In this document: positions 14,400 to 32,560 of the stretch, one piece after another
Position numbering within the stretch: the stretch's first letter is position 1
How the letters are laid out: each line of letters begins with the position of its first letter
Origin: an uncultured Dokdonia sp.
GTDB lineage: Bacteria > Bacteroidota > Bacteroidia > Flavobacteriales > Flavobacteriaceae
Reading direction: 5' to 3'
NCBI RefSeq assembly: GCF_937910895.1
Contig: NZ_CALEMI010000083.1
Location: forward strand, 1-41,422
Length of the DNA stretch: 41,422 nt
Translations under genes and position numbers: made by a program
The notes under the pieces: model-generated
The model's input: only the letters and a program-made list of their open reading frames with translations
Database searches by the model: none
Told to the model about the DNA's origin: nothing

Positions 14400-14400
14400 T

Positions 14401-15868: not shown

Positions 15869-15947
15869 TATGGTTAGTTGTGACGAATGTTCAAATAGGC
15901 TTATTAACCTATGACTTTATGACTTATTGAAAATAATATTGTTTTAT

Positions 15948-19150: not shown

Positions 19151-20347
19151 ATGATCACCGTAAATCAAGCCTTACAATATGTCTGGAAGCAACCGCTCCC
19201 CTCCGTTAAAGAGCAATCACTCCAAGTAGAGGATGCCTTGGGTCAAATCCTAGCGCAAGACATAAACTCCCCTATTTCCCTTCCCTCGTTTAAACAATCG
19301 AGTATGGATGGTTATGCTGTACGCTTTCGCGAAAAAGAAAACACACTTTACAACCTCATTGGAGAAATAAAAGCAGGGGATTCAGCAAATCTTAGAATGC
19401 AACCTGGCGAAGCAGTGCGTATTTTTACAGGAGCACCTGTTCCGCAACATGCAGATGCCGTAGTGATTCAAGAAAAGTCTATGGTTTTAGGCACGCAACT
19501 GACGATCCAAGATACGCCCACAAATGGACAAAATATACGACCCATCGGCAGTCAAATTGAAAAAGGAAAAATAGCATTGACCAAGGGTCATTACATCACT
19601 CCTGCCTCCATAGGTTTGCTAAAAAGTCTGGGGATTGAAAAATTACAGGTATTCCAGCCCCCTAAAGTTGCGATTGTCATCACTGGCAATGAATTGGTCT
19701 CCACGGGCAAACCACTAGAAGAAGGGCAAATCTACGAAAGCAACAGCGCCGTCCTCAAAGCAGCACTCTATCAGCAAGGAATTGATGACGTATCTATAGT
19801 GTATGCCAAAGATACCTTGGAAGAAACAGAAACTGTTTTAAATACTGTTTTGTCCCATTCAGATATGGTATTGATCTCGGGAGGTATTTCCGTTGGTGAT
19901 TATGATTTTGTAGGCAAAGCATTGAAGAATCTTGAAGTAGAAGAATTATTTTATAAAGTCTTACAAAAGCCTGGAAAGCCTTTATTCTTTGGTAAAAAAG
20001 AAAACACGTTCGTCTTTGCCCTTCCTGGAAACCCTGCCTCCACGCTCACTTGCTTTTATGTCTATGTCACACTCTTACTTGACCGATGGAGAGGTTCAGA
20101 AAATCCTGGCTTGTTACGCGTACAATTGCCTATCTCTAAAACTTTTGAAAATACATTTGGTCGTGCCCTTTTTCTTAAAGCACGCATTAAAAATAATAAA
20201 GTAGAGATGTTGGATCAGCAGAATTCGGCGACAGTTATTAGTTTCGCGAAAGCGAATGCTTTGCTATATATCTCAGAAGACACACAAAAAGTTGCCGAGA
20301 ATGAACTCGTAGAAACTCTAATCCTGCCTTATGGAAGTTCAAATTAG
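19151..20347 (+). CDS. moeA: Molybdopterin molybdenumtransferase MoeA
   Basis: A 398-aa protein. MoeA inserts molybdate into adenylylated molybdopterin, the last step of basic cofactor synthesis in the cytoplasm. Family signatures are in order: SMDGYAV, IFTGAPVP, ITGNELV, GGISVGDYD, KPGKPLFFG and LPGNPAS, and the length is normal for MoeA. I prefer the ATG at 19151, giving MITVNQAL, over the GTG at 19133. It is the first gene of an eight-gene operon and overlaps the following modE-like gene by 17 bp. Two copies of the TTTCGCGAAA palindrome core lie inside it, in two different codon phases (near 19325 and 20242). Confidence 0.96.
   Translation: MITVNQALQYVWKQPLPSVKEQSLQVEDALGQILAQDINSPISLPSFKQSSMDGYAVRFREKENTLYNLIGEIKAGDSANLRMQPGEAVRIFTGAPVPQHADAVVIQEKSMVLGTQLTIQDTPTNGQNIRPIGSQIEKGKIALTKGHYITPASIGLLKSLGIEKLQVFQPPKVAIVITGNELVSTGKPLEEGQIYESNSAVLKAALYQQGIDDVSIVYAKDTLEETETVLNTVLSHSDMVLISGGISVGDYDFVGKALKNLEVEELFYKVLQKPGKPLFFGKKENTFVFALPGNPASTLTCFYVYVTLLLDRWRGSENPGLLRVQLPISKTFENTFGRALFLKARIKNNKVEMLDQQNSATVISFAKANALLYISEDTQKVAENELVETLILPYGSSN
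19324..19334. repeat. Palindrome core copy (CTTTCGCGAAA)
   Basis: Within moeA, read as codons for R-F-R-E. It retains CGCTTTCGCGAAA but loses the final GCG. Confidence 0.7.
20241..20254. repeat. Palindrome copy (GTTTCGCGAAAGCG)
   Basis: Second copy inside moeA, read as S-F-A-K-A, a different codon phase from the copy at 19324. Confidence 0.7.
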
Positions 20348-20675
20348 AAATCGAATCTGGATCGAAATAGACGGCGCCAAGTGGATGGGCAAAGGGCATG
20401 TCCAACTACTCACCGCTATTGAAAAGACAGGCTCATTATCGGGTGCTTCCAGGGAGACGGGCATTTCTTACCGGAAAACATGGCGATTGATTAATCAAAT
20501 CAACGAACTCGCCAAGCACGAAGTCGTTCACCTCCAAAAAGGCGGTGTGGGTGGCGGTGGTGCTGTAGTCACACCCTACGGTAAAAAATTACTTGGTTTT
20601 TTTAAGGATTTAATGGTACAAAGTGAACAGCTTTTACAACAACAATTAAAAGCAAATCCCGACTTATGGAAATAG
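20331..20675 (+). CDS. ModE-like winged-helix molybdate regulator, DNA-binding domain only
   Basis: A 114-aa protein matching the N-terminal domain of ModE: an 'LLTAIEKTGSLSGASRETGI' helix-turn-helix, 'SYRKTWRLINQIN', then the glycine-rich wing 'GGVGGGGAVVTPYGKKLL'. Full-length ModE proteins carry two C-terminal molybdate-binding (MOP/TOBE) domains; these are absent, so how the protein senses molybdenum is unclear. It overlaps moeA by 17 bp and the transporter gene by 10 bp, so it is likely translated together with them. It probably regulates this operon and the convergent molybdoenzyme genes. Confidence 0.88.
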   Translation: MEVQIRNRIWIEIDGAKWMGKGHVQLLTAIEKTGSLSGASRETGISYRKTWRLINQINELAKHEVVHLQKGGVGGGGAVVTPYGKKLLGFFKDLMVQSEQLLQQQLKANPDLWK

Positions 20676-21409
20676 AAACCTCCACATTGATGATCTTCCT
20701 TTTCATACTACCCGTGCTGTCCTTCTTATATGCCAGCGTTGGACACGGCGGAGCTAGTGGGTATCTTGCGTTGATGGCACTTTTTAACTTTCCGAATACA
20801 ACCATGAAACAAACTGCACTACTACTTAATCTATTTGTGGCAGGCATCGCCTTTTATCATTATTACAAAGCGGGACATTTCAGAAAAAAACTATTCATTC
20901 CATTTGCTATCGGCTCTATTCCCACTGCTTTTATAGGAGGCTCGATGCAGGTTGAGCCATTGGTTTATAAAAAGATTCTAGGCGTGCTGCTGATTTTTGC
21001 CATTGGTCGAATATTTTGGAAAAGAACACGTAAAGACAGTGCCATAAAAGATATAAAATGTACACAAGCCTTGATTCTCGGACTCGCTGTAGGATTTTTT
21101 TCAGGGCTTATCGGTATCGGTGGAGGGATTATTTTAACACCTATTATTTTACTCTTGCATTGGGGAAATATGAAGGAAGCAGCGGCAGTTTCGGCATTGT
21201 TTATATGGGTCAACTCATTTTCTGGACTGCTTGGTCAGTTCAGTAGTGGTATTACATTACTCCCCATCTCAGGCGTTATGGTAGTAATCGCCATTTCAGG
21301 GGGGCTAGCTGGAAGTTATTTAGGGAGCCGCAAATGGAATAATCGCATTTTAGAATATTGCCTGGGCATCGTCCTCATCAGTGCTTCAGTCAAATTATTA
21401 CTTTTTTAG
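20666..21409 (+). CDS. TSUP (TauE/SafE) family membrane transporter
   Basis: A 247-aa polytopic membrane protein with about 7-8 hydrophobic segments and the two related halves of the TSUP fold, marked by 'SVGHGGASGYLALMALF' near the start and 'GLIGIGGGIILTPIILLL' in the middle. Family members move sulfite, sulfonates or related anions. It lies within the molybdenum cofactor operon, overlapping the modE-like gene by 10 bp and ending 1 nt before moaD. No modABC molybdate transporter is visible in this window. It could carry a sulfur oxyanion or molybdate; sequence alone does not decide. Confidence 0.88.
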   Translation: MEIETSTLMIFLFILPVLSFLYASVGHGGASGYLALMALFNFPNTTMKQTALLLNLFVAGIAFYHYYKAGHFRKKLFIPFAIGSIPTAFIGGSMQVEPLVYKKILGVLLIFAIGRIFWKRTRKDSAIKDIKCTQALILGLAVGFFSGLIGIGGGIILTPIILLLHWGNMKEAAAVSALFIWVNSFSGLLGQFSSGITLLPISGVMVVIAISGGLAGSYLGSRKWNNRILEYCLGIVLISASVKLLLF

Positions 21410-21410
21410 C

Positions 21411-21644
21411 ATGGAAATTACATTCAAATATCACGGTCGCTTCACAGATCTTTTTGAAAAAAAGAAAGAAATTCTTTCGGTAAAATCTAGAACGGCAGAA
21501 GCTTTAAGAAAAGAACTTGAAGGAGTAGATGTACGCTTTCGCGAAAGCGTATACCAGCTCGCACAAAACAATAAAATAATCACTGGGAATGATCCGATCA
21601 CCGCGGCCGAAGTAGACGTTTTCCCACCATTTTCAGGCGGATGA
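21411..21644 (+). CDS. moaD: Molybdopterin synthase small subunit MoaD
   Basis: A 77-aa ubiquitin-like sulfur carrier ending in the required Gly-Gly ('VFPPFSGG'). The C-terminal glycine is adenylated by MoeB and then thiocarboxylated, and the sulfur is transferred to cPMP in complex with MoaE. The start at 21411 (MEITFKYHG) fits the family; an upstream in-frame start at 21381 would lie inside the transporter gene. The stop overlaps the next start as ATGATGA. A 20-bp perfect palindrome lies in the middle of the gene (21532-21551). Confidence 0.93.
   Translation: MEITFKYHGRFTDLFEKKKEILSVKSRTAEALRKELEGVDVRFRESVYQLAQNNKIITGNDPITAAEVDVFPPFSGG
21532..21551. repeat. Perfect 20-bp palindrome around the TTTCGCGAAA core
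   Basis: TACGCTTTCGCGAAAGCGTA inside moaD, read as V-R-F-R-E-S-V. It is the longest perfect copy in the window. Confidence 0.85.
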
Positions 21645-22711
21645 TGAACGAGCGATACGCAAGACATATCACCCTCGCCGAAGTAGGCAAAGAAGGACAG
21701 GAAAAACTCACTGCAGCCAAAGTGCTTGTGGTGGGCGCTGGTGGTCTTGGTTGTCCCGTATTACAATACCTCGTTGCCGCAGGCGTGGGAACCGTAGGTA
21801 TTGTAGATTTTGATACCGTATCACTATCCAATCTCCAACGACAGATTTTGTACACCGAAAACGACATCGGAAAAAACAAAGCCCTTACCGCAAAAAGCCG
21901 ACTAGCAGCTTTAAATAGCCATGTAGAAATTAAGGCTTACCCGATTCCGCTGGAATTAAATAATTGTCTAGATCTTCTTTCAGACTATGATATTGTGGTG
22001 GATGGTACCGATAATTTTACTACTCGCTATCTTATTAACGACGCCTGTACGAAGCTCCAAAAACCTATGATTTATGGTTCGTTATACAAATTTGAAGGTC
22101 AGGTTTCGGTTTTCAATTACAACAACGGTCCCTCCTATCGTTGCCTTTTTCCTCAACCTCCGACAGCTGGCGAAGTACCTAACTGCAATGACATCGGAAT
22201 TTTAGGTGTACTTCCTGGACAGATCGGAATACTACAAGCAACCGAAGCACTCAAAATCATATTGAAAATAGGAGATGTATTAAGCGGTAAATTACTATAT
22301 ATAAATGTATTAACAAACGATACGCGAACGATAGAGATCACAAAAAACAAACAAATCATACAATCCATTCGATCCAAAAAACTCGAGTTGGTCAGTACTC
22401 AGGATTGTACTTTTATTGAAACAATCTCTCTGTCTGATATCCATTTCCAAGAAGATCTAGTGTGGATTGACGTTCGCGAGGAAGATGAACTACCATATTT
22501 AGAATTCTCTCAATTAAAAAAAATACCGCTATCTACGCTTTCGCGAAATGTGGATACCATCCCAAAAATGGATAAAAAAATTATATTCTGTCAATCTGGA
22601 ATTCGAGCTAAAAAAGCGATAGTACTTTTGGAAGCACAACAAATCACAAATTGTGTTGCTCTCAAAGAAGGAGCGGCTCAATTACAATCTTGGATACATC
22701 AACAATTATGA
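21641..22711 (+). CDS. moeB: MoeB-like MoaD adenylyltransferase with C-terminal rhodanese domain
   Basis: A 356-aa protein. Residues 1 to about 245 form an E1-like/ThiF fold that adenylylates the MoaD C-terminus: RYARHI (Arg finger), ATP loop GAGGLG at 32-37, DGTDN at 121-125, and Cys182 in VPNCNDIG at the position of the ThiF/MoeB catalytic-loop cysteine. Residues about 255-356 are a rhodanese domain with active-site Cys317 in FCQSGIRA, suited to supplying sulfur. The zinc site of classical MoeB (two CxxC pairs) is not present: only one Cys (168) remains in SYRCLF and there is no distal CxxC. The gene could start at 21641 or 21644. It overlaps moaE as ATGA. Confidence 0.92.
   Translation: MMNERYARHITLAEVGKEGQEKLTAAKVLVVGAGGLGCPVLQYLVAAGVGTVGIVDFDTVSLSNLQRQILYTENDIGKNKALTAKSRLAALNSHVEIKAYPIPLELNNCLDLLSDYDIVVDGTDNFTTRYLINDACTKLQKPMIYGSLYKFEGQVSVFNYNNGPSYRCLFPQPPTAGEVPNCNDIGILGVLPGQIGILQATEALKIILKIGDVLSGKLLYINVLTNDTRTIEITKNKQIIQSIRSKKLELVSTQDCTFIETISLSDIHFQEDLVWIDVREEDELPYLEFSQLKKIPLSTLSRNVDTIPKMDKKIIFCQSGIRAKKAIVLLEAQQITNCVALKEGAAQLQSWIHQQL
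22536..22548. repeat. Palindrome copy (CGCTTTCGCGAAA)
   Basis: Inside moeB, read as T-L-S-R-N: the third possible codon phase relative to the other copies. Confidence 0.7.
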
Positions 22712-23151
22712 AAGAGCAAAAAATCAAAAACATATTCATCGAAGGTCCCATCCCTCCAGAAAAAATTGCAACATCAATCGCCAATCATCAATCCAAAATA
22801 GGAATAGGCGCTCATAATATTTTTTTAGGGCAAGTACGCGCTGATGAAATTGAAGGTAAAAAAGTAACCGCTATTGAGTTTTCAGCACAACAGGAAATGG
22901 CAAATGCTGTCGCCCATGAGATCCGTGAAGCGGTGTTTGAAAAATATCCCGTACACTGTATGCATGTGTATCATAGTATCGGAAAAGTCGGTGTAGGAGA
23001 ACTCTGTTTCTTTGTCTTCGTATCTTCCGGACACCGTGATGGCGTTTTTGAATCACTCCCATTTCTAGTGAATGAAATCAAGGCAAAAGTACCGATTTTT
23101 GGCAAGGAGATTTTTGAAGACGAAACACATCAATGGAAAGTAAATAAATAG
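22708..23151 (+). CDS. moaE: Molybdopterin synthase catalytic subunit MoaE
   Basis: A 147-aa protein. MoaE, with two MoaD partners, converts cPMP to molybdopterin. Recognisable family blocks are 'IGAHNIFLGQVRADEIEGKK' (normally GA...F.G.VR), 'MHVYHSIGKVGVGE' and the 'SSGHRDGVFE' and 'VPIFGKE' motifs that carry catalytic Arg and Lys residues. The start at 22708 overlaps the moeB stop (ATGA); earlier in-frame starts lie within moeB. It is followed 2 nt later by moaCB. Confidence 0.93.
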   Translation: MKEQKIKNIFIEGPIPPEKIATSIANHQSKIGIGAHNIFLGQVRADEIEGKKVTAIEFSAQQEMANAVAHEIREAVFEKYPVHCMHVYHSIGKVGVGELCFFVFVSSGHRDGVFESLPFLVNEIKAKVPIFGKEIFEDETHQWKVNK

Positions 23152-23153
23152 AT

Positions 23154-24062
23154 ATGATCGATATCACACATAAAAGTAATACCCTCCGTATCGCAACAGC
23201 ACAAGCAACGGTTACCGTTAGTTTGCAGGAAACGATTAAAGCTATTGAAAACCATACAGTTCCCAAAGGGAATGTCTTTGAAATGAGTCGGGCGGCAGGA
23301 CTTTTGGCAGTCAAAAAAACGCCCGACATCCTCCCCGATTGTCATCCGTTGCCAATTGAGTTTACGGGAATTACTTATGAAATAAATGGATTGAATATTA
23401 TTATTTCTTGCACCATCAAAACCATTTATAAAACAGGCGTCGAAGTTGAAGCGATGCATGGTGCAAGTGTCGTAGCACTCAATCTGTATGATATGCTGAA
23501 GCCTATTGACAAAGGCATTGAAATAAATAACATCAAACTACTTTCAAAAAAAGGCGGAAAATCAGATTATAAATTGAAGAACACCCATCTCACGGCAGCA
23601 GTCATCGTCTGCTCAGATTCGATTTCTAAAGGTCAGAAAGAAGACCGAGCTGGAAAAGCAATCATAGAAGAACTGGAAAAACACCAAGTTGAGATAAAAG
23701 AATATTTCATTATACCTGATGAAATAGAAACCATTCAAAGGCATCTCAAAGCACAAGTCTCTGAGGGTACCTCAATGGTTATTTACACTGGTGGCACGGG
23801 ACTTTCACCGAGAGATCAAACCCCTGAAGCCTTAACACCACTTTTAGATAAGACCATACCTGGCATTGAAGAAACCATACGTCGCTATGGTCAAAATCGT
23901 ACTGCCTACGCCATGTTATCGCGAAGTGTTGCCGGAATGATGGGAGACACTTTGGTTCTTGCTGTTCCAGGCTCAACGGCTGGTGCTCGAGAATCCATCC
24001 AGGCGATTTTCCCTGCGGTGCTACATCTTTTTGATATCATTAAAGGAGCCAATCATTCATGA
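23154..24062 (+). CDS. moaCB: Bifunctional MoaC-MoaB/MogA fusion
   Basis: A 302-aa protein with two enzymes in one chain. Residues 1 to about 145 are MoaC (cPMP synthase accessory protein): start 'MIDITHKSNTLRIATA', KGNVFEMSRAAG, DCHPLPI, 'TGVEVEAMHGAS' and the catalytic Asp-Lys pair in KPIDKG. Residues about 152-302 are a MoaB/MogA molybdopterin adenylyltransferase: 'AAVIVCSDSISKGQKEDRAG', 'VIYTGGTGLSPRDQTPEAL', 'AMLSRSVAGMMGDTLVLAVP' and GSTAGARES. MoaC acts at the first step and MoaB/MogA at the third, so the fusion joins non-consecutive reactions. It overlaps moaA by 4 bp. Similar fusions are known in other bacteria. Confidence 0.94.
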   Translation: MIDITHKSNTLRIATAQATVTVSLQETIKAIENHTVPKGNVFEMSRAAGLLAVKKTPDILPDCHPLPIEFTGITYEINGLNIIISCTIKTIYKTGVEVEAMHGASVVALNLYDMLKPIDKGIEINNIKLLSKKGGKSDYKLKNTHLTAAVIVCSDSISKGQKEDRAGKAIIEELEKHQVEIKEYFIIPDEIETIQRHLKAQVSEGTSMVIYTGGTGLSPRDQTPEALTPLLDKTIPGIEETIRRYGQNRTAYAMLSRSVAGMMGDTLVLAVPGSTAGARESIQAIFPAVLHLFDIIKGANHS

Positions 24063-25066
24063 AACAAACACAAAACATACTCGCTGATACTTTTGGAAGA
24101 ACACATAATTACCTGCGTATCTCACTTACGGAGCGTTGCAATCTGCGTTGTTCTTACTGTATGCCCATGGATGGTGTACCACTTACACCCAAACCACATT
24201 TAATGACTGGAGAAGAACTGTTTGAAATAGCAAAACTCTTTGTTGATGCAGGTGTCAATAAAATTCGATTGACCGGTGGTGAGCCTTTAATACGTAAAGA
24301 TTTTCCAGAAATACTAACGCATCTTTCTACGCTTCCCGTTTCCTTGTCTATTACAAGTAACGGTGTAAACATCGATCGGCATATAGCTATTTTGAAATCT
24401 CATCACGTTTCAACCATCAATTTAAGTCTGGACACTTTGGATGCTATCAAATTCAAGAAAATTACCTTCCGGGATTATTTTGAAAAGGTGTATGCCAATA
24501 TTTTCAAACTGATCGATGCTGGTTTTAAAATCAAAATTAATGTGGTCTTAATGAAGGGAATTAACGACAACGAGATCAACGACTTTATTGAATTTACCAA
24601 AAACCACCCTGTCAACGTTCGGTTTATTGAGTTTATGCCATTTGATGGCAACAATTGGAACCGTGAAAAGACCGTATCTTTAAAAGACATTTTACATCGA
24701 TTGGATACCGCTTTCGCGAAAGCGGAAATTTTAAGACTCCCAGATGCGCCAAATGACACCGCTAAGAATTATAAGATTGCAGGATACACAGGCGAATTCG
24801 GCATTATTAGTACCGTAACCAATCCGTTTTGTGATAGCTGCAATAGAATACGTTTAACCGCTAATGGTCAACTTAAAAATTGTCTTTTTTCAACAACTGA
24901 AAGTGATTTACTTACCCCCTTTCGGGAAGGAAAAGATATCAAACCGATTATTCAAAAGGCCGTTTTAGGCAAGCATGCCATGCGCGGCGGATTGAGCACT
25001 CCCGAACAGTTTAATGATCCAAAAGAGCACTCTGACAACAGAAGTATGATTCGAATTGGAGGTTAG
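24059..25066 (+). CDS. moaA: GTP 3',8-cyclase MoaA (radical SAM)
   Basis: A 335-aa radical SAM enzyme that starts molybdenum cofactor synthesis by cyclising GTP. The SAM-binding [4Fe-4S] cluster uses Cys27, Cys31 and Cys34 (CNLRCSYC). The second, substrate-binding cluster uses Cys258, Cys261 and Cys275 (FCDSCNRIR...NCLF). The essential C-terminal Gly-Gly is present (MIRIGG). The RLTGGEPLIRKD segment is typical. It is the last gene of the operon, and its stop overlaps the stop of convergent mocA by 4 bp (25063-25066). A perfect palindrome copy lies at 24708-24725. Confidence 0.97.
   Translation: MKQTQNILADTFGRTHNYLRISLTERCNLRCSYCMPMDGVPLTPKPHLMTGEELFEIAKLFVDAGVNKIRLTGGEPLIRKDFPEILTHLSTLPVSLSITSNGVNIDRHIAILKSHHVSTINLSLDTLDAIKFKKITFRDYFEKVYANIFKLIDAGFKIKINVVLMKGINDNEINDFIEFTKNHPVNVRFIEFMPFDGNNWNREKTVSLKDILHRLDTAFAKAEILRLPDAPNDTAKNYKIAGYTGEFGIISTVTNPFCDSCNRIRLTANGQLKNCLFSTTESDLLTPFREGKDIKPIIQKAVLGKHAMRGGLSTPEQFNDPKEHSDNRSMIRIGG
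24708..24725. repeat. Perfect 18-bp palindrome around the TTTCGCGAAA core
   Basis: CCGCTTTCGCGAAAGCGG inside moaA, read as T-A-F-A-K-A-E. Confidence 0.85.
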
Positions 25067-25653
25067 TATTTTCTTAATTCCCTTAAAGCTTCTGGTGTAT
25101 CTGCATCTTCCATAAAGACTCCGAGATGAACAAAAGTAACGACATCCGTATACTTTTTAGTTAGATTTTTGGCACCATCATCACCGTCTTGTTGCATCAA
25201 TTCGTTAACATAAAAGGAGTCAAAGATGATGGGAGGTCCTGACCATCCCTCATCAGACTTTGAGCAAATAATTTGATTTTGACCAGGTGTAAAAGTATTG
25301 ATCAGCTTTTTAAAATGTGCTGTGGTAAGTAATGGTTGATCGACCAAGGCAATCAATATGCCATCTATATGTTTATTCTTTTCTATAATCTGCTGCACTC
25401 CAAAAGCAAGTGAATTACCCATTCCTTTTTCCCAATTAGGATTCATACTTATGGTAATTGGCAAATCTTCTATTTGCGGTTGAATCTCTTTCGCGAAAGC
25501 ACCTAAAACTACATGTACTTTCAGCCCTGTTGTAAGTAGCGTTTTTAATTGATGCTCAATAAGAGAGGTTTCATTCCACGGTAAGAGTTGTTTGGTTTTA
25601 CCCATTCGGCGAGATGCACCCGCAGCGAGTAGCAATATCATCATATTATCCAT
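25063..25653 (-). CDS. mocA: MocA-like molybdenum cofactor nucleotidylyltransferase
   Basis: A 196-aa nucleotidyltransferase of the MobA/MocA group. The nucleotide-binding signature LLLAAGASRRMGKTKQLLP is at the N-terminus, 'ALVDQPLL' supplies the metal-binding Asp, and 'GPPIIF' and 'DDGAKNL' follow, as in MocA proteins that attach CMP to molybdopterin. A CTP specificity fits the neighbouring xanthine-oxidase-family enzyme, which uses the cytosine dinucleotide cofactor. The start at 25653 (MDNMMILLL) overlaps xdhC by 8 bp; an alternative at 25674 would overlap by 29 bp. The 3' end overlaps the moaA stop tail to tail. A palindrome copy lies at 25488-25500. Confidence 0.9.
   Translation of the reverse strand: MDNMMILLLAAGASRRMGKTKQLLPWNETSLIEHQLKTLLTTGLKVHVVLGAFAKEIQPQIEDLPITISMNPNWEKGMGNSLAFGVQQIIEKNKHIDGILIALVDQPLLTTAHFKKLINTFTPGQNQIICSKSDEGWSGPPIIFDSFYVNELMQQDGDDGAKNLTKKYTDVVTFVHLGVFMEDADTPEALRELRKY
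25488..25500. repeat. Palindrome copy (CTTTCGCGAAAGC)
   Basis: Inside mocA, read on the minus strand as G-A-F-A-K-E. Confidence 0.75.
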
Positions 25654-26665
25654 GAATGGTTCCTGCTTTTTCACGTAAGGAAATAGGCTTTTGATTTCGG
25701 ATCACTGTCAGAATTTCAGCAATGATAGAGATGGCGATTTCTGAAGCACTTTGAGCGCCAATATTTATTCCAGCTGGCCCGTGCACCTTCTCTATAAACT
25801 CAGGTTCGGTATCTGGAAAACGCTCTAAAAACTCAGCAAACAGTCGTTCCCTGCGATGAGTAGGTCCCAATAGTCCGAAATATGCTGGATTCGTTTCGCG
25901 CAAAGCGATCAGGTATTGCACATCTTTATTAAAACTATGTGTCATTAGGACCACAGCGGTATTTTCATCAATTCTGGAGGTATCCAAGTTATCAAACGTG
26001 GGAGTGCTTAAACTACTTGCGCCTGTAAAATAATCTATGCTTTTTTGCTCATCAGGCGGAGCGATGATGTGTACGTCCCATCCCACATTACTAGTCATTT
26101 TTGACAGTTCGACGGCATCGTGTTCTGCTCCAAAAATATAAAGTTGAAAAATGGGAGAAAACGTTTGCAAAAAGCTTTCTAGGGATGTGTCTATTTGAGC
26201 ATTAGGAAACATAGGAAATTTTTGATCCTTCATTTCGATGATGGTACCCATTTGAAAACTTTTGGATTGCTCAAGGGCATCAAAGCTGTAATAACTTTGA
26301 CAGTGAAAAGTTTCCCGAGTTTGTAATGTGGTTGAGAACGCTTTCGCGAAAGCGGAATCCACATAAAAAGGTTCTAGTAAAATATAAATAATACCCTCGC
26401 ATCCTAAGCGGAATCTGCCATCATAAGACATTATTTTTGGTTGCTGGCTCTTAAAAATAGACTGCGCTTGACGCGCCACTTCTTTTTCTACACAACCACC
26501 ACTCACAGCTCCCTGCCATTCTCCACGGTCACTGATAAGCATACGAACTCCAGGCTTTCTGTAAGACGAGCCCTCCAGAGCCACGACCGTTGCCAAGACT
26601 ATTTTTATGCCTTTTTGTTGCCAATGCAAGGCTGTGTTAATAAGTGTTTTGAATTCGTGGGTCAT
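25646..26665 (-). CDS. XdhC/CoxI-family molybdoenzyme maturation factor
   Basis: A 339-aa protein with the two parts of XdhC proteins. The N-terminal domain has 'VLATVVALEGSSYRKPGVRM' and 'WQGAVSGGCVEKEVARQA'. The C-terminal part is Rossmann-like, with 'LYIFGAEHDAVELSKM' and 'YFGLLGPTHRRERLF' and a 'HGPAGINIGAQSASEIAISI' end. XdhC binds the mature cofactor, promotes its sulfuration and hands it to the apo-enzyme. It follows iorB on the same strand after a 69-bp gap holding an intrinsic terminator, and overlaps mocA by 8 bp. It carries a palindrome copy at 26339-26354. Confidence 0.92.
   Translation of the reverse strand: MTHEFKTLINTALHWQQKGIKIVLATVVALEGSSYRKPGVRMLISDRGEWQGAVSGGCVEKEVARQAQSIFKSQQPKIMSYDGRFRLGCEGIIYILLEPFYVDSAFAKAFSTTLQTRETFHCQSYYSFDALEQSKSFQMGTIIEMKDQKFPMFPNAQIDTSLESFLQTFSPIFQLYIFGAEHDAVELSKMTSNVGWDVHIIAPPDEQKSIDYFTGASSLSTPTFDNLDTSRIDENTAVVLMTHSFNKDVQYLIALRETNPAYFGLLGPTHRRERLFAEFLERFPDTEPEFIEKVHGPAGINIGAQSASEIAISIIAEILTVIRNQKPISLREKAGTIHG
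26339..26354. repeat. Perfect 16-bp palindrome around the TTTCGCGAAA core
   Basis: CGCTTTCGCGAAAGCG inside the xdhC-like gene, read on the minus strand as S-A-F-A-K-A-F. Confidence 0.85.
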
Positions 26666-26680
26666 GTATTATCTTAAAAA

Positions 26681-26713: not shown

Positions 26714-26734
26714 ATGATGTAAACTCGTTTATAA

Positions 26735-28990
26735 TTATCCTTTAAGTTCTTGGCTCGCCATAAATGGCTGATGATAGTGTCGCTTTCCTGTCGCTTTGTA
26801 CAAGGCATTTGCCACGGCACCCATGATAGGTGGAAAAGGAGGTTCGCCCAGTCCTGTTGGATCTGTGTCACTTTGCACGAAATCGACTACAATTTTTTCT
26901 GGCGCCTCATTATGACGAATTAATCTATAGGTATCAAAATTCTTTTGTTCAGGTTTTCCTTCCTTAAACGTAATGGCACTGTACATCGCATGCCCTATGC
27001 CATCTACGATACCACCTTCTACGAGGTTAGTTGCCGCATCTGGATTTACCACAATACCACAATCTACAGCGCAATAGACATCCTTAACTTTAGGCTGGTT
27101 GCCTTTCATCTCAAGATCAAGGACTTGTGCGACATAAGAATTATGACAGAAATAGGCAGAAACACCACGGTTTTTTGAGGTACTCGTATCCCAATTGGAT
27201 GTTTTTCTTACCAATTCGAGAACTCCTATATAACGAGACGCATCGTAATCATTATTTTCTCCAACGGGATTATTTTTAGCTTTTTCAAGAAGTTCCAATC
27301 TTAAATCGATAGGATCTTTGCCCATTTCTTCGGCAAGTTCATCTAGAAAACTTTGCTCTGCACCTGCAATAAAGTTAGAGCGTGGCGCTCTGAAAGCCCC
27401 TGTTGTAATGTTTGAAGGAACTTCCCATGTTTCAGCAAGGTAGTTATCGATCGCTCCAGCTGGGAAGCGATTTGCTGCTAGCGGACTTTCAGGGATTCCT
27501 CCTGCAATGACATGAAAACCTATCAGATTATTATTGGCATCAAGAGCTGCTTTATAAGTGGCATGATATGCGGGACGATAGACTCCATTTGTCATATCGT
27601 CTTCACGTGTGTAGACTAATTTTACAGGCGCGTTAATTTCTTTAGAAATCACCGCCGCTTCTACTAAGAAGTGACCATATAATCTACGACCAAAACCACC
27701 GCCCATCCTGGTCATCATAATATCAATATTCTCTAACGGAATGCCCAGACGTTCTGAAACACTCTTTTCCATGATTTCTGGAGTTTGGACAGGTCCCTCA
27801 AGTTCTGCACGATTTTCTGTCACATTTGCGAAGAAATTCATTGGTTCCATTGTATTGTGAGCGAGAAACGGACACGAATAACTGCGTTCGATCACTCTAT
27901 CAGCATTTTTGAACGCTTTTTCAGGATTTCCATCCTTTCGCGCAAGCGTAGCTTTATCAACACCTATTTCTTGCATCATTTTAATATGCTCACTGGTATT
28001 TTCTAATCCCGCTGGACGGTTTACTGTTGAGGTACGACCAAAAATATTCATCTCTCTAGAAATTTCTGGTGCCAATTCCCATTCGGCTTTTAAAGCTTTT
28101 TTAGCTTGCATTACTTGCCAAGTAGTATCTCCGACAACCACCGCTAATTTTGTAAAAGCGGCTTGATCAAAGTAGCTCAGTTTTTGGTCTTCTGTATAGG
28201 AATCAATAATTAAAACGTCTGTAATGCCTGGCATTTGCTTTATTTCAGCATCATTAATAGATGTGAGCTGCATTCCAAAGGCTGGAGGTTGCACTATCAT
28301 CGCAATCTTCATTCCTTCACGCTGGGTGTCCAAACCAAATAACGGTTGTCCTGTTACGATTTTTTTACCATCTACATTCTTCCTTGAAGTCCCAATGATC
28401 GAAAAATTAGACTTTTCTTTTAAGGTTACATTTTCTGGAACTTCCAATTTTGCAGCGATAGATGCCATCTCTCCAAAACCTACTTTTTTATCACTAGCCG
28501 TATGAATGATGAATCCTTCTTTGGTTTCTATTTCACTTACAGGTACTTGCCAAGTATTGGCAGCAGCTTGCTTGAGCATTTCTCTTGCTGTTGCTCCTGC
28601 GGTACGTAAAGGTTCCCAACCTGCACGTATAGACTGGCTCCCTCCTGCAAGTTGACGGGTAAATATATCTGTATTTAAAGGCGCCTGCTCTACGATTACA
28701 TTTGCCCAATCTACATCTAACTCTTCGGCGACGAGCATAGGCATCGAGGTTTTGACATTTTGACCTATTTCTGGATTAGGGGACATAATAGTTACTACAC
28801 CATTATCGCCTATTTTTAAAAATCCGTTGAGTTCGAACCACTCCTTAGGCATTTCCATACCCAGCGCCTTGGCTTCAGGAGTTTCCTTACAAGAGACTAA
28901 ATAATTAAAACCTATAACCAATCCTCCTCCGGCAAGGGATACATTCTTGATAAAAGAACGTCTTCCTAATGTTTTCTTTGTTGTGCTCAT
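26735..28990 (-). CDS. IorB-like molybdopterin-binding subunit (xanthine oxidase family), Tat-exported
   Basis: A 751-aa protein resembling the large subunit of isoquinoline 1-oxidoreductase and related aldehyde dehydrogenases; it holds the Mo-cytosine-dinucleotide cofactor. The start at 28990 (MSTTKKTL) puts a twin-arginine signal at the N-terminus: Arg10-Arg11 in GRRSFIKN, a hydrophobic stretch, and a lipobox LVSC ending at Cys34, so a Tat-exported lipoprotein is likely. Cofactor-binding blocks include 'MMTRMGGGFGRRLYGHF' and 'TGAFRAPRSNFIAGAEQSFL'. The catalytic Glu lies near residue 716 in GLGEPPFPP. The partner [2Fe-2S] gene is 25 bp upstream. No FAD subunit is present, so electrons probably leave through a periplasmic carrier. 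The substrate is unknown. Confidence 0.92.
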   Translation of the reverse strand: MSTTKKTLGRRSFIKNVSLAGGGLVIGFNYLVSCKETPEAKALGMEMPKEWFELNGFLKIGDNGVVTIMSPNPEIGQNVKTSMPMLVAEELDVDWANVIVEQAPLNTDIFTRQLAGGSQSIRAGWEPLRTAGATAREMLKQAAANTWQVPVSEIETKEGFIIHTASDKKVGFGEMASIAAKLEVPENVTLKEKSNFSIIGTSRKNVDGKKIVTGQPLFGLDTQREGMKIAMIVQPPAFGMQLTSINDAEIKQMPGITDVLIIDSYTEDQKLSYFDQAAFTKLAVVVGDTTWQVMQAKKALKAEWELAPEISREMNIFGRTSTVNRPAGLENTSEHIKMMQEIGVDKATLARKDGNPEKAFKNADRVIERSYSCPFLAHNTMEPMNFFANVTENRAELEGPVQTPEIMEKSVSERLGIPLENIDIMMTRMGGGFGRRLYGHFLVEAAVISKEINAPVKLVYTREDDMTNGVYRPAYHATYKAALDANNNLIGFHVIAGGIPESPLAANRFPAGAIDNYLAETWEVPSNITTGAFRAPRSNFIAGAEQSFLDELAEEMGKDPIDLRLELLEKAKNNPVGENNDYDASRYIGVLELVRKTSNWDTSTSKNRGVSAYFCHNSYVAQVLDLEMKGNQPKVKDVYCAVDCGIVVNPDAATNLVEGGIVDGIGHAMYSAITFKEGKPEQKNFDTYRLIRHNEAPEKIVVDFVQSDTDPTGLGEPPFPPIMGAVANALYKATGKRHYHQPFMASQELKG

Positions 28991-29015
28991 CTGTACTGTT
29001 TTTAGGTGAAACTCC

Positions 29016-29480
29016 TTAGCTAAGGTTTTGGTTAGATGCTGTTTTGATTGCTTTTTTGATACGAGTATAAGTACCACAACGACAAATATTACCGCTCATC
29101 GCATCATCTATATCTGAATCAGAAGGCGAAGAATTTTTCTTTAGTAAGGCCGTAGCGCTCATAATTTGTCCTGCCTGACAGTATCCACATTGTGGGACAT
29201 CATGCTCCAGCCAAGCTTCCTGAACTGGATGGTCTCCATTTTCTGAAATACCTTCAATGGTCGTTATGGCATAATCGGCAGCTACAGAAACGGGAGTAAT
29301 ACAAGACCTAGCCGCATCCCCATCAATATGAACGGTACAGGCGCCACACTGAGCGATTCCACATCCAAATTTTGTTCCTACCAGCCCGAGATGGTCGCGT
29401 AATACCCATAACAATGGGGTACTCTCTTCGACATCTACTTGATGTTTTTTACCGTTTACTTTGAGATTATATGTTGCCAT
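29016..29480 (-). CDS. IorA-like [2Fe-2S] subunit
   Basis: A 154-aa electron-transfer subunit with two [2Fe-2S] clusters. The N-terminal ferredoxin-like cluster uses Cys40, Cys45, Cys48 and Cys60 ([13 protein letters not shown]...SC). The C-terminal four-helix cluster uses Cys98, Cys101, Cys133 and Cys135 (QCGYC...ICRC). All eight ligands are present and length is normal. It has no signal peptide, as expected for a subunit that travels with its Tat-signal-bearing partner. It is the first gene of the minus-strand iorA-iorB unit; its leader contains a hairpin followed by a U-run. Confidence 0.95.
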
Positions 29481-29525
29481 AACGTAATGCTTTTTATCTA
29501 GGTTAGACGCTGCTTTAAAGTTAGT

Positions 29526-29578
29526 AAAAAAAGACGAGTCTGTTTTTATTTGATTACTTTTTAACTTAGACCGTCTTT
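29526..29578 (-). terminator. Terminator-like hairpin in the iorA leader
   Basis: Arms at 29530-29541 and 29568-29578 pair over 11 bp with one bulged base and a 26-nt loop. On the minus strand the stem runs into UUUUUUU. It lies about 45 nt upstream of the iorA start, so it would act as a leader attenuator or would end a minus-strand small RNA made from 29579-30040. I do not recognise a known riboswitch. Confidence 0.6.
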
Positions 29579-30038
29579 ATTAGTTACAGACCGAATCCAC
29601 TCCAATAGGATATTATTAACTGTCTTTGATAGCTACCTATTTGAATGTATGTTATTTGCTGTCGTCGCAGGAGTGTAGCAGATTGAAAGAATTTTTATGA
29701 TATTGTCCATGTTGAGAAAGTATTTCTTTTCAATAGTTCTTAAAGGTTTTTAGTAGTTTATAATTTAGGTTTTGAGTTGTTACTAGTAAATAAAAAATAT
29801 AACTACAATGGTAGATGCAAAAATGGATTATCTGATATGTTTTAGAATGATATTTCTGATATACGCTTTTGTACTTCAATCAGGCTCAGTATAGACTTCT
29901 ACCTCAAGATGTTCGTTGAAAGCGTACAGATCTATCCAAAATATAGAAGTAACCAGATAGTATCAAATACGTATTCTATCATTTTAAGAGTATTCCTAAA
30001 GACTGATGAATATCATCTTTTAACATACAAGAACGCAC
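29579..30038. other. Intergenic region between iorA and ppk2
   Basis: About 460 bp of AT-rich DNA between divergent transcription units. I see no ORF or tRNA. Its right edge carries the ppk2 promoter, and its left edge the leader hairpin of iorA. The rest is unexplained. Confidence 0.4.
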
Positions 30039-30046
30039 TACATTTG
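30039..30046 (+). promoter_or_regulatory. Bacteroidota -7 box upstream of ppk2
   Basis: TACATTTG matches the TAnnTTTG consensus of Bacteroidota primary promoters and lies 27 bp before the ppk2 start. No clear TTG is present at -33, so the match is partial. Confidence 0.45.
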
Positions 30047-30073
30047 GGTACATATTATGCTTAATAATCGTAC

Positions 30074-30922
30074 ATGAAATTTACCGCAGAAGACCTTACG
30101 CAAGCAAAAACGAGAAAAGATCTTATTGCTATTGCTAAAAAAAAGAAGATTCTTATATCAAAAGCTTTAAAAAAAATCAGATATGAAGCCGAGCTTTTAG
30201 AGTTGCAGGCGGAATTTGTAAATCTTCAAAAACATATTGCTGAGAAGAAAATTCGAGTAGCCATCATTTTTGAAGGTAGAGATGCTGCTGGTAAAGGGGG
30301 AACTATAAAACGTTTTAAAGAACATCTCAATCCGCGTGCCTCACGTGTAGTAGCACTTACAAAACCAACAGAGGTTGAAAAAGGACAATGGTATTTTAGA
30401 CGATATATAAAAGCATTACCGAATCCTGGAGAAATTGTCTTTTTTGATCGTAGTTGGTACAACCGTGCTGTAGTGGAACCCGTTATGGATTTTTGTAGTA
30501 AAGAACAGTATGAGAAGTTTATTGTACAAGTACCAGAATTTGAACATTTGCTTTATGAAGACAACCTAAAGATTATAAAGTTTTGGTTTTCTATTTCAAA
30601 ATCTGAACAGAAAAAACGTTTTGATTCTAGATTGAAAAATCCGCTGAAACGTTGGAAGTTTAGTCCTGTAGATATGCAAGGACAACAATTATGGGATCAA
30701 TACACGCATTACAAAGAGCAAATGTTTAGTAAAACGCATACTAATTTTAGTCCTTGGATCATTGTCAAAACCAATAATAAAAAACAAGCGCGATTAGAAA
30801 GCATGCGCTATGTATTGTCATTGTTTGATTATAAGGGCAAGGGAACTTCTAAAACCTCCATCTTACCCGATCCCAATGTCATCATGCGATACCACCGCAG
30901 CGCTATTCAAATTGATATCTAA
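30074..30922 (+). CDS. ppk2: Polyphosphate kinase 2 family protein
   Basis: A 282-aa PPK2-family protein, which transfers phosphate between polyphosphate and nucleoside phosphates in the cytoplasm. The Walker A motif is GRDAAGKGG at residues 68-76. The family signature FDRSWYNR (124-131) supplies the Walker B Asp, and the lid region has 'FSISKSEQKKRFDSRLKNP' and 'KRWKFSPVDMQGQQLWDQY'. Length and motifs fit a one-domain PPK2; whether it favours ADP or AMP cannot be told. It is followed 9 bp later by a paralogue broken by a stop codon. Genes of this type often help regenerate nucleotides under energy stress. Confidence 0.93.
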   Translation: MKFTAEDLTQAKTRKDLIAIAKKKKILISKALKKIRYEAELLELQAEFVNLQKHIAEKKIRVAIIFEGRDAAGKGGTIKRFKEHLNPRASRVVALTKPTEVEKGQWYFRRYIKALPNPGEIVFFDRSWYNRAVVEPVMDFCSKEQYEKFIVQVPEFEHLLYEDNLKIIKFWFSISKSEQKKRFDSRLKNPLKRWKFSPVDMQGQQLWDQYTHYKEQMFSKTHTNFSPWIIVKTNNKKQARLESMRYVLSLFDYKGKGTSKTSILPDPNVIMRYHRSAIQIDI

Positions 30923-30931
30923 AAAAAAGCT

Positions 30932-31705
30932 ATGAGTACTACAACACTATCCAAAGAAGATATCACCCTTCTCAATTCCAAAATAGGGTTAGAAACACTT
31001 TTGAAAAATAAAAAGGTAGACATTCCAAAAACATTGGCCGAATTAAAATACATCACCACACTTCGTAAAAAGCAAGAGGAATTGATTAAGCTTCAAAACT
31101 GGGTCATTGAAAAAGAGAAAAAAATAGTGATCCTATTTGAAGGACGCGATGCCGCTGGAAAAGGAGGAGCAATCAGGAGAATTACAGAATATATTAATCC
31201 GCGTCAATTTCGTATTGTGGCACTTAACATCCCAACAGAAGATGAGCGAAAACAATGGTTTTTTCAACGATATATCAATCAGCTTCCCAAACCGGGGGAG
31301 ATTGTTTTTTTTGATTGAAGTTGGTATAATCGTGCTGTAGTAGAACCCGTAAACGGATTTTGTTCTACGCATGAATATGAAATCTTTATGTCGCAGGTCA
31401 ACGAATTTGAAAAAATGCTGATACAATCGGATACATACTTAATTAAATTCTATTTTTCTATTACAAAAGAAGAACAAGCAAAGCGTTTTAAGCAAATAAA
31501 AAAAGATCCTAAAAAACAATGGAAAATGACGGCTGTAGACGAAAAAGCACAAGAGTTATGGGATCAATACACCACCTATAAACAACGAATGTTTGCAGAA
31601 ACAAATTCGCAAATCGCACCTTGGGTAATTATAGATGCGGATAAGAAATCACCCGCACGTCTAGAGGCGATTTGTCATGTTTTAGAAACTATTCCGTATT
31701 CATAG
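30932..31705 (+). pseudogene. ppk2: Second polyphosphate kinase 2, interrupted by an in-frame TGA
   Basis: A paralogue of the preceding gene (about 257 codons) that stays in one frame from 30932 to 31705 except for a TGA at 31316-31318. Walker A is intact (GRDAAGKGG near residues 71-79). The stop replaces the Arg of the FDRSWYNR signature: the sequence reads GEIVFFD, stop, SWYNRAVVEPV. A CGA-to-TGA or AGA-to-TGA change would explain it. Downstream motifs (SITKEEQAKRF, 'KQWKMTAVDEKAQELWDQYT') are undamaged, so the lesion is recent or is a sequencing error. The truncated 128-aa product would lack Walker B and the lid and should be inactive. A restart at ATG 31388 would give a 105-aa fragment without Walker A. 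Confidence 0.88.
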
Positions 31706-31755
31706 ACCTCTCATTGAATATTTCACGAAAGTAAACATTCAAAAAAGAGCATAAA

Positions 31756-31794
31756 AAATGCTTACATCAATCTATAGTGTCGATGTAAGCATTT
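31756..31794. terminator. Bidirectional terminator between ppk2 and the CBS gene
   Basis: Arms AAATGCTTACATC (31756-31768) and GATGTAAGCATTT (31782-31794) form a perfect 13-bp stem with a 13-nt loop. A-rich sequence lies on one side and ATTTATTTTA on the other, so it can stop transcription from both convergent genes. It ends 3 bp from the CBS-gene stop. Confidence 0.85.
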
Positions 31795-31797
31795 ATT

Positions 31798-32217
31798 TTA
31801 ATATTGTTCTAGATGATAATTGATCAGGTCTGTAGTAGTCACAATACCCATCAATTCTCCTTCATCAACGACAGGTAAAGCGTGAAATTCCTTTTTAGAA
31901 AGTATCTCTGCTACTTCTTTTATAGTGGTATCTGAGTTGACACTTACTAAATTTTTAGCCATTACTTGTTCTATAGAAAACATATTATATACCGTAGTAT
32001 CTACTTCTTGTTCATCATCAAACACTGCATCGGCAAAGCTGATACGTAATAAATCGGTATAACTCAACATCCCTATAATATGAGATCCACTTACCACAGG
32101 AATATGCCGTATGTTATTTTCTTTAAAAAGCTTTTCAGCTATTTCGAGGGTATCTTTTGTATTCAGTGTTACCACGTTTTTGGTCATAATACTTGAAACA
32201 GGTGTTCTTTTTTTCAT
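31798..32217 (-). CDS. Two-CBS-domain protein
   Basis: A 139-aa protein made only of two CBS modules. The first covers about residues 8-60 ('VSSIMTKNVVTLNTKDTLEI', 'NIRHIPVVSGSHIIGMLSYT', DLL). The second covers about 80-139 ('VMAKNLVSVNSDTTIKEVAE', 'EFHALPVVDEGELMGIVTTT', DLI). Such pairs bind adenine nucleotides or S-adenosyl compounds and often act as energy sensors. I chose the ATG at 32217 (MKKRTPVSS), because the 15 residues upstream from 32262 are outside the domain. It is convergent with the polyphosphate kinases, so a shared link to nucleotide status is possible but unproven. Confidence 0.9.
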   Translation of the reverse strand: MKKRTPVSSIMTKNVVTLNTKDTLEIAEKLFKENNIRHIPVVSGSHIIGMLSYTDLLRISFADAVFDDEQEVDTTVYNMFSIEQVMAKNLVSVNSDTTIKEVAEILSKKEFHALPVVDEGELMGIVTTTDLINYHLEQY

Positions 32218-32560
32218 AATCGTTACGTTTAATTTGTTACCTAAAAGTAGATCAATTATCACCTAAAAAAGATGATAAAAGTCAGTGTACAGAAAAAGAT
32301 CCTCCCTGATATTTAAAGACTGTTTTGGGGTGTTGTGCGCTTTCGCGAAAGCATAGTGAGGAATAAGTGTATACTGAACCTAGTCGGAGTACAAAAGCGT
32401 ATAAAAGAGCTTTACAATACTAAAGAATAGTATTACTAGGAATTCTATTTTTGATGGCCATAAAATATATTTCTAGCCAAAAAATAGTTTACACGAAATT
32501 TCATTAGTTTTAACCAGATTTCATGCAAACCAACAAGTAAAAAAGAGGTAATCATCTGAT
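32218..32560. other. Divergent intergenic region with a palindrome copy
   Basis: About 340 bp between the minus-strand CBS gene and the plus-strand kinase-aminotransferase gene. It should contain promoters for both. On the minus side TACTTTTA resembles a -7 box. The only intergenic copy of the GCTTTCGCGAAAGC palindrome lies here (32339-32352). No ORF is visible. Confidence 0.45.
32339..32352. repeat. Perfect 14-bp palindrome GCTTTCGCGAAAGC, intergenic
   Basis: This is the same core as the copies inside the molybdenum genes, here between divergent genes and about 120 bp from the CBS gene start. Confidence 0.85.

Follow-up and report, generated by a model that had tools for sequence, protein, structure and literature searches.

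The element analyzed here, a palindrome found in hundreds of copies in Dokdonia genomes, is clade-specific and genome-wide, and we tentatively read it as an uptake (self-DNA) signal that may work like a DNA uptake sequence, a reading to which we assign a probability of about 0.45. Its near-invariant core is the 14-bp palindrome GCTTTCGCGAAAGC.

Sites in the Window

The window is the whole 41,422-nt stretch of Dokdonia DNA that was analyzed (NZ_CALEMI010000083.1). Eight copies of the 10-bp core TTTCGCGAAA had been reported from it, and all eight are present (Table 1), where 0.07 would be expected; in 100 dinucleotide shuffles of the window the core occurred 0.07 times on average and twice at most, never eight times. 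Five copies extend to longer perfect palindromes, where the original prediction had perfect or near-perfect ones, and the remaining three are perfect over 10 bp. Seven of the eight are genic and, again as predicted, all three codon phases are used. Degenerate relatives had also been noted, one of them listed in Table 1 and another visible in the sequence near 25893.

The window scan bears out the reported absence of the core from 1-19324 and from 32351-41422. The claim that this unevenness is striking proved weak, as the genome density predicts 9.4 sites in the window vs. the 8 found, and the window is average in site density. With random placement, the probability is 0.012 for an empty first 19.3 kb and 0.13 for an empty last 9.1 kb. 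A giant-adhesin-type locus fills the site-free 18 kb of the window and comprises two PorP/SprF-family genes, an open frame of 3251 aa, a CHU_C/PKD protein and one gene without a Pfam match; in a relative, genome G299, a locus of this kind likewise forms the largest gap among the regions sampled. Rather than uneven, the motif is unusually even.

Table 1. Sites, a degenerate relative and the site-free stretch in the window.
Feature	Coordinates	Core start	Gene or locus (strand)	Codon phase, reading	Aligned place in D. pacifica
Core, 10-bp palindrome	19325..19334	19325	moeA (MoeA_N domain protein, 19133-20347 +)	0, VRFREK	Holds full 14-mer
Core, 10-bp palindrome	20242..20251	20242	Close to moeA 3′ end	2, SFAKA	Not kept
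20-bp perfect palindrome with full core	21532..21551	21537	Putative small MoaD-like frame, by-eye reading (~21412-21644 +)	0, VRFRESV	10-bp core kept
Core, 10-bp palindrome	22539..22548	22539	ThiF-family gene (21641-22711 +)	1, STLSRN	Not kept
18-bp perfect palindrome with full 14-mer	24708..24725	24712	moaA (24059-25066 +)	2, AFAKA	Not kept
12-bp perfect palindrome, 14-mer but for one mismatch	25488..25499	25489	MobA-like gene (25063-25674 -)	2, AFAKE	Not kept
16-bp perfect palindrome with full 14-mer	26339..26354	26342	XdhC-family gene (25646-26665 -)	2, AFAKA	Kept
Full 14-bp perfect palindrome	32339..32352	32341	Intergenic, between CBS-domain gene (31798-32262 -) and aminotransferase/APH gene (32561-34822 +)		
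Degenerate relative, 14-mer with two mismatches	27934..27947		Molybdopterin-binding protein gene (26735-29077 -)		
Site-free stretch	748..17267		Giant-adhesin/T9SS type locus (-)		

Architecture, Abundance and Taxonomic Spread

Around the 14-bp core the consensus extends to TTACGCTTTCGCGAAAGCGTAA, a palindrome of 22-24 bp, and on either strand the DNA 5′ of the core is G/T-rich and C-poor out to ~26-30 bp from the centre. The total biased region is two-fold symmetric and spans ~52-60 bp. Past 12 bp the flanks change at about the background rate and retain only their composition, and we found no common sequence outside the palindrome of the kind that a mobile repeat leaves. Spread as a copied repeat was rejected on these grounds. 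At ~101.7 kb in G299 two copies lie 33 bp apart; an auto-regulated binder encoded beside this double site was considered and dropped, as the adjoining gene appears by eye to encode a small membrane-like protein.

The source genome contains 1,092 copies of TTTCGCGAAA in 4,809,286 bases (1 per 4.4 kb). Cores number 369-905 per genome in all 18 Dokdonia genomes searched and 408-664 in two further genera, and 0-19 in the remaining genomes of a 299-genome sample of the family. The count is nearly flat across genome size (log-log slope 0.17 in 15 of the 18 Dokdonia genomes). Across 15 Dokdonia genomes there is one 14-mer in every 3.7-7.5 kb, and the core density of G299 and the source genome is one per 3.4-4.4 kb. 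Perfect 14-mers number 159 in 595 kb of G299, vs. 12 with a single mismatch. A search for analogous palindromes in other genera, confined to short stretches and of low power, returned none.

Placement Relative to Genes

In sampled stretches of other Dokdonia genomes the sites are spaced more evenly than random. All 30 stretches of 20 kb taken across the G299 chromosome contain between 1 and 8 sites, and pairs less than 500 bp apart are scarce (4 observed vs. 16.4 expected). Intergenic copies are in excess, making up 65 of 119 although intergenic DNA provides 8.5% of bases, and 22 of these 65 are centred 10-20 bp beyond a gene end, where 3.9 would be expected. The other 54 copies are genic and fall into the three codon phases as 11, 13 and 30. 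Codon use does not account for them: when the 325 coding sequences of G299 were shuffled among synonymous codons, the core occurred 1.6 times on average and at most 6 times. Core and non-core genes hold 1.49 and 1.87 sites per 10 kb, respectively, in what is a tiny sample (19 in 128 kb vs. 2 in 10.7 kb).

Conservation in Place

The original prediction had argued that the DNA, not the protein, is what is preserved, and in G299 and its relatives the iterated palindrome is indeed maintained at the DNA level. The exact core was found at 24 of 28 aligned genic places in G302, 20 of 23 in G304 and 22 of 25 in G301 (86-88%), whereas control 10-mers were exact in proportions of 0.27, 0.18 and 0.18. 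Nor was the site lost at synonymous positions, as windows encoding the same peptide were identical in DNA in 20 of 23, 16 of 18 and 17 of 18 cases (G302, G304 and G301), compared with 0.30, 0.18 and 0.17 of control windows. Conservation declines with distance: in G305, 4 of 8 genic places were exact vs. 0.10 for control 10-mers, and D. pacifica kept three of seven places of the window. At 32 of 50 places the site is present in every species compared. Of 128 place-by-species comparisons, 103 were exact, with one mismatch in 9, two in 3, four in 1, and three gapped; a further 9 had 6-9 mismatches and trace back to just four positions, of which three are intergenic and unsure in alignment.

Phages and Transferred Blocks

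Fourteen phage contigs, picked because they bear the motif, contain 53 cores in 271 kb. The Haemophilus phage HP1 has 17 perfect USS in 32 kb, and we therefore dropped phage carriage as an argument against uptake sequences. Transferred blocks in other genera hold roughly the site density of the donor; in Winogradskyella jejuensis, all six sites of the genome lie inside 23 kb. In low-copy genomes, 20 chosen stretches contain 41 copies; genes for metal efflux or of TolC-like, Fur-like or TraN-like type, as judged from translations by eye, hold 32 of these, and the other 9 lie elsewhere. A clustered, parS-like ancestor, suggested by the clustered look of the sites in these genomes, was rejected in favor of transferred blocks on the basis of this gene content.

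Possible Functions

The USS of Haemophilus and the DUS of Neisseria provide the best match to the element, which is why we read it as a possible uptake signal. Perfect copies are many and single-mismatch copies few, as in both systems; in the part of PMC1626085 available to us, this excess is described as a puzzling mark that USS and DUS have in common and that sets them apart from regulator sites. The sites are also conserved in place far above the surrounding DNA, and places without a site may tend to be all-or-none. For DUS, the accessible text of PMC2397512 reports exact conservation of 71% at ~85% identity and takes the all-or-none pattern as arrival by recombination. The even spacing and intergenic excess, the carriage of the motif by host phages, as HP1 carries USS, and a copy number that hardly tracks genome size would likewise suit an uptake signal. 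G299 encodes a ComEC-family competence protein whose own gene contains a site, which is weak evidence because ComEC-type proteins are widespread. Natural competence is described for Riemerella, which the authors of PMC7965970 place in the Flavobacteriaceae, and R. columbina favors its own DNA, although according to the portion of that paper at hand an uptake sequence is not established there.

Several observations count against this interpretation. Known USS and DUS cores are not palindromes, whereas both the 14-mer and its extended consensus are, and conservation declines with distance. The comparisons with 6-9 mismatches go back to four mostly intergenic positions, and core genes show no difference in site density from non-core genes in the tiny sample given above. 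The literature searched on palindromes, uptake sequences and recombination signals yielded no report of Dokdonia competence. The excess just past gene ends is also unfavorable, because most USS and DUS show no bias to places downstream of coding sequences, the evenness of their spacing being itself disputed (PMC1939737, as far as the available part goes).

If the element is an uptake signal, a putative DNA receptor of the transformation machinery would prefer fragments bearing the site, and would most simply be a symmetric dimer contacting the core and the keto-rich flanks. Recombination of such fragments would spread perfect sites and restore damaged ones. Sites would accumulate where they are permissible, namely past gene ends and, read as AFAKA, RFRE or LSRK, in linkers and in signal peptides; in the end one would be present in most fragments that are several kb long. 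The phages and mobile blocks of these hosts would gain the signal as well. Somewhat more tentatively, we propose the fuller form of this reading: a palindromic uptake signal with keto-rich DNA on both flanks, common to the hosts and their phages and mobile elements, recognized by a two-fold symmetric receptor and the first such tag in Bacteroidota. We know of no earlier palindromic self-DNA signal from that phylum.

The original prediction suggested roles in repair or chromosome organization; these are possible, and the pattern of DNA uptake sequences fits better. A chromosome-organizing protein is nevertheless the main rival, although we consider it unlikely: a clade-specific nucleoid or topology protein, putatively binding the palindrome as a dimer and touching the G/T-rich flanks on the outside, would anchor or bend the DNA every few kb. 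The two-fold symmetry of the long biased region, the even spacing with few close pairs and the strong conservation in place would all suit such a protein. However, copy number is about constant over genomes of 2.9-5.5 Mb, so that spacing is not fixed, the motif-selected phages and the transferred blocks hold sites at similar density, and site-free adhesin loci are tolerated. Much like the Dokdonia motif, parS and Noc-type ParB sites are 14-16 bp palindromes with TTTC/GAAA halves, with a centre that we take to be two bases shorter. The Dokdonia motif differs from them in occurring in hundreds of copies across the chromosome. Moreover, each genome has one chromosomal-type ParB, motif-rich genomes have no specific second one, and the DNA-reading region is unchanged; re-specification of ParB was rejected, as no residue separates the 9 motif-rich from the 11 motif-poor proteins among the 20 of 27 that were aligned. 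Two of the 15 motif-rich genomes and five of the 12 motif-poor ones also encode relatives of ~600 aa.

It is improbable, in our judgment, that the element is a Chi-like signal acting in two directions on an AddAB helicase-nuclease, with G/T-rich DNA 5′ on each strand. Matches to PF12705, taken as AddB-like (~900 aa), are present in 27 of 27 genomes and AddA-like proteins (~1,050 aa) in 23 of 27, calls that are based on protein size and adjacency, but these nuclease genes are as frequent in motif-poor genera. The core density is close to that of E. coli Chi (GCTGGTGG; 48 in 200 kb), which is also carried by resident DNA; phage DNA would benefit too, and the G/T-rich strand would form the 3′ tail. 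Known Chi sequences are short and non-palindromic, the E. coli one being an octamer, whereas the motif is a palindrome of 14-22 bp, and in the same 200 kb Chi is clustered (CV 1.40) and its flanks have no comparable G/T bias. Still less probable is a palindrome of the HIP type, made and maintained by a resident DNA methyltransferase with linked mismatch repair. The HIP1 comparison of the original prediction stands in so far as both HIP1 (GCGATCGC), with the alternate HIPs of cyanobacteria, and our motif are over-represented, genome-wide palindromes in all codon phases; its methylation link is not supported, as none of the three methylase families covered tracks the motif (of 15 motif-rich genomes, 6 have PF00145, 2 have PF01555 above the cut-off and 9 have PF02086, which is found in 0 of the 3 that lie outside Dokdonia). 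HIP1 is tied to matching methyltransferases, and the part of PMC4390886 open to us describes no flank bias for it; at 8 bp and ~1-2 per kb it is also shorter and denser than the Dokdonia motif with its 14 near-invariant bp and biased flanks. We give least credence to an RNA-level element, be it a bidirectional terminator, an mRNA-end stabilizer or a REP-like mobile palindrome. The palindrome is able to fold and intergenic copies gather just past gene ends, but nearly half of all copies are genic, the downstream side is A/C-rich with no T-run, and no shared sequence past the palindrome suggests a mobile repeat. Complementarity between the two flanks of one copy does not exceed that between flanks taken from separate copies (P = 0.86 and 0.87), which led us to reject a terminator hairpin.

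Likeness to Known Systems and Significance

The USS of Pasteurellaceae is AAGTGCGGT with AT-rich segments and the DUS of Neisseria is GCCGTCTGAA. As far as the excerpts we drew on describe them, they have in common with the Dokdonia motif hundreds or more copies per genome, perfect copies exceeding single-mismatch ones, conservation in place, restriction to a clade, an excess in non-coding and permissive places and carriage by a host phage, and USS in addition has biased flanks outside its core. The Dokdonia motif differs in being palindromic, longer (14 near-invariant bp within 22-24 bp), G/T-rich on both flanks, sparser, common just past gene ends, found in Bacteroidota and known from sequence alone. 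In the literature searched, which mostly left subscription papers out of scope, the 14-mer was not found; the 10-mer appeared under unrelated titles. Overrepresented palindromes in Flavobacteri-, a crossover hotspot instigator in Bacteroidetes and a link of Chi or GT-rich DNA to RecA or AddAB likewise gave nothing there, and there is no mention of Dokdonia or of Bacteroidetes in the available part of PMC5217627.

Even if its function differs from the one proposed, the tag is a tracer of gene transfer. To our knowledge, sequence-marked DNA exchange is established only in Neisseriaceae and Pasteurellaceae. If our reading is true, these marine bacteria would represent a third, unrelated case, with a palindrome replacing the oriented core; why such tags evolve would become testable in a new system, and the motif would provide a handle for a receptor search.

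Abundance and Distribution of the Palindrome

The 10-bp palindromic core occurs eight times in the window, where 0.07 copies would be expected by chance. Five copies extend as perfect palindromes of 20, 18, 16, 14 and 12 bp, the remaining three being 10 bp long, and seven of the eight are genic, with all three codon phases in use as originally predicted. The site-bearing genes belong to a molybdenum-cofactor cluster comprising moeA, ThiF-family, moaA, MobA-like and XdhC-family genes (family matches) and a small MoaD-like frame (read by eye), while the site-free stretch holds a 3,251-aa frame and PorP/SprF genes.

Coordinates of sites and associated features
Feature	Sequence	Position	Strand	Remark
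Core	window	19325		
Core	window	20242		
Core	window	21537		
Core	window	22539		
Core	window	24712		
Core	window	25489		
Core	window	26342		
Core	window	32341		
3,251-aa open frame	window	1771-11526		lies between genes of the PorP/SprF family; a probable giant adhesin of the cell surface
Six-copy block	Winogradskyella jejuensis (G548), contig C4	394481-417533		
Arg-rich in-frame insertion	stretch L089	~4500-4601	reverse	near protein N-terminus
Arg-rich in-frame insertion	stretch L082	~3200-3346	reverse	near protein N-terminus

The source genome (4.81 Mb) contains 1,092 cores, compared with 22 reversed-control matches, and 878 copies of the near-invariant 14-mer GCTTTCGCGAAAGC, compared with none for the control. 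All 18 Dokdonia genomes searched had between 369 and 905 14-mers, the two lowest counts coming from genomes 78% and 85% complete. Dokdonia pacifica had 903, with contig positions matching those listed for G300, and the genus is called Dokdonia on that ground. Among 299 genomes sampled across the family, 61 had at least one 14-mer and just five had more than 19: two Dokdonia, two members of a second genus (G010, 578; G242, 664) and one of a third (G190, 408). The 14-mer was matched in 18 of 246 genomes of the order sample, with a maximum of 6 copies outside the source genome. The motif-rich genera adjoin one another in a 41-row PolA tree, which would be compatible with, rather than demonstrate, a single origin. 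In 15 of the 18 Dokdonia genomes, those with a completeness of 88% or more, copy number barely tracked genome size (slope 0.17; Spearman 0.40, P = 0.14).

The distribution in the window had been considered strikingly uneven. This impression did not hold, as the window is average (8 cores versus 9.4 expected at the source-genome rate) and spacing in other Dokdonia is more even than random. In another Dokdonia genome, G299, the CV of spacing was 0.79 versus 0.99 (P = 0.003), pairs less than 500 bp apart numbered 4 versus 16.4 expected (P = 0.0002), and 30 stretches of 20 kb held a mean of 5.5 sites with a variance of 2.19; for the D. pacifica sites listed on two contigs, the CV was 0.61 (P = 0.0001). 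Within 400 kb of G299 we found 119 cores, 65 of them intergenic, with intergenic DNA making up 8.5% of bases according to open-frame gene calls. Twenty-two of these 65 were centred 10-20 bp beyond a gene end, versus 3.9 expected. Within the G299 sequence sampled, the largest gaps between sites contain two giant open frames, of 4,432 and 5,053 aa; their neighbors resemble, by eye, PorP/SprF and OmpA-like proteins, much as in the site-free stretch of the window. In G299 (L235-L236), a unit labeled by eye as OmpA-like, PorP/SprF-like and giant-adhesin frames is repeated, and the same neighboring motif copy recurs alongside it.

Constraint and Anatomy

The motif is preserved by the DNA and not by the protein, as had been proposed: G299 has 54 genic copies, versus 1.6 after synonymous codon shuffling. 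The peptide AFAKA occurs 29 times in G299, versus 0.1 in shuffled proteins, and together these excesses indicate that the DNA element even shapes proteins. At aligned places in three related genomes (G302, G304 and G301, respectively), the exact core was found at 24/28, 20/23 and 22/25 genic and 22/25, 17/25 and 22/25 intergenic places, compared with 18-33% for control 10-mers. A genome with 95% identity (G313) kept 43/43 cores, versus 67-68% for controls. The motif was not lost at synonymous sites, since windows with identical peptides had identical DNA in 20/23, 16/18 and 17/18 cases in the same three genomes, versus fractions of 0.30, 0.18 and 0.17 for control windows. Counting against conservation, G305 kept only 4/8 genic places, yet 11/13 intergenic ones, and 3/7 window places examined were conserved in D. 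pacifica. In 595 kb of G299 there were 159 perfect 14-mers and 12 with a single mismatch. Gain and loss over 128 comparisons, covering few positions, were bimodal: 103 exact, 12 with 1-2 mismatches, one with 4, 9 with 6-9, and 3 gapped.

Base composition was profiled in five Dokdonia genomes over 552 half-sites, some of them orthologous to one another; because the sites were picked by the 12-bp core, the six bases nearest the center are fixed in every half. Counting from the center, position 7 was 98% G, 8 was 84% C, 9 was 62% A, 10 was 79% T and 11 was 61% T. From position 11 to 25, C made up just 2-10% (14% at position 15) and G and T were elevated, the bias fading by about 30 from the center. 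This bias was present around genic and intergenic copies alike; the second genus showed it too (25 sites), and the third more weakly (15 sites seen). No complementarity was found between the two flanks of one copy, and beyond 12 bp flanks evolved at about the background rate, intergenic ones often slightly faster; what is kept is thus flank composition rather than a fixed sequence.

Mobile DNA and Phages

In 20 hand-chosen stretches from low-copy genera, with genes named from translations alone, 32 of 41 copies were located in genes of the metal-efflux, TolC-like, Fur-like or conjugation (TraN-like) type, the other 9 falling outside such genes. All six W. jejuensis copies fall inside 23 kb, part of which (L059) encodes molybdenum-cofactor genes, and this block looks like an acquisition from a motif-rich donor. 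MobA- and XdhC-like genes are also part of the cofactor cluster of Algoriphagus sediminis (L002); the MoaA encoded there shares 71% identity with that of the window, exceeding most Flavobacteriaceae listed. This case suggests that the cluster may have been transferred between orders.

Scanning viral contigs with a 16-mer gave 41 stretches. Fourteen contigs with at least two sites, picked for bearing them and including some near-copies or relatives, had 53 cores in 271 kb versus 1 control match; at least four other such contigs (those of L175, L184, L210 and L126/L387) were left out of this set. Phage genes with internal sites include those for a head protease, a primase, a head-protein relative and, next to a transposase, an ATPase; 18 of the 20 phage proteins scanned had a PHROG match. 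As a yardstick, the Haemophilus phage HP1 (32 kb) has 17 perfect and 9 single-mismatch uptake sequences (USS), with 7.1 of both expected by chance. The insertions in L089 and L082, of types RACPKRSRRE and ERRRSAKARLN, look like a second palindromic repeat family that is read through in genes.

Discussion

The element is real, clade-wide and selected at the level of DNA; our data establish its existence, the constraint on it and how it is distributed. The original prediction likened it to HIP1, and HIP sequences have been tied to methylases (PMC4390886). That tie is unmatched here: across 15 rich and 12 poor genomes, three methylase families did not track the motif, with PF00145 present in 6/15 rich genomes, PF01555 above cut-off in 2/15 and PF02086 in 9/15. 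E. coli Chi has a similar density but lacks the flank bias and even spacing. Matches to the PF12705 nuclease family, judged AddAB-like from their size and from being adjacent, occurred in 27/27 genomes, rich and poor. The next-best reading, a nucleoid protein site, seems rather unlikely to us; no ParB residue separating 9 rich from 11 poor genomes was found.

The best single reading is an uptake-type signal of self DNA, to which we give a probability of about 45%. The motif matches the USS in its strong consensus, few single mismatches and flank segments (PMC1626085). It shares conservation in place and permissive siting with the DUS of Neisseria, where sites are described as emerging with many simultaneous mismatches (PMC2397512). 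In H. influenzae, 65% of USS are reported within reading frames, with a non-coding share above expectation; the same source cites Karlin's even spacing but questions how even it is, and rejects any preference for sites downstream of genes (PMC1939737), whereas the Dokdonia motif is biased to places just past gene ends. We do not claim membership among uptake sequences, since its palindromic form sets the motif apart from those known and we infer uptake itself, along with a receptor. Riemerella, classed by the authors in the same family as Dokdonia, is described as naturally competent, R. columbina preferring its own DNA with no known tag, and Flavobacterium johnsoniae was non-competent in that study's test (PMC7965970). 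Judged by the testable marks, the Dokdonia motif appears to work like an uptake sequence.
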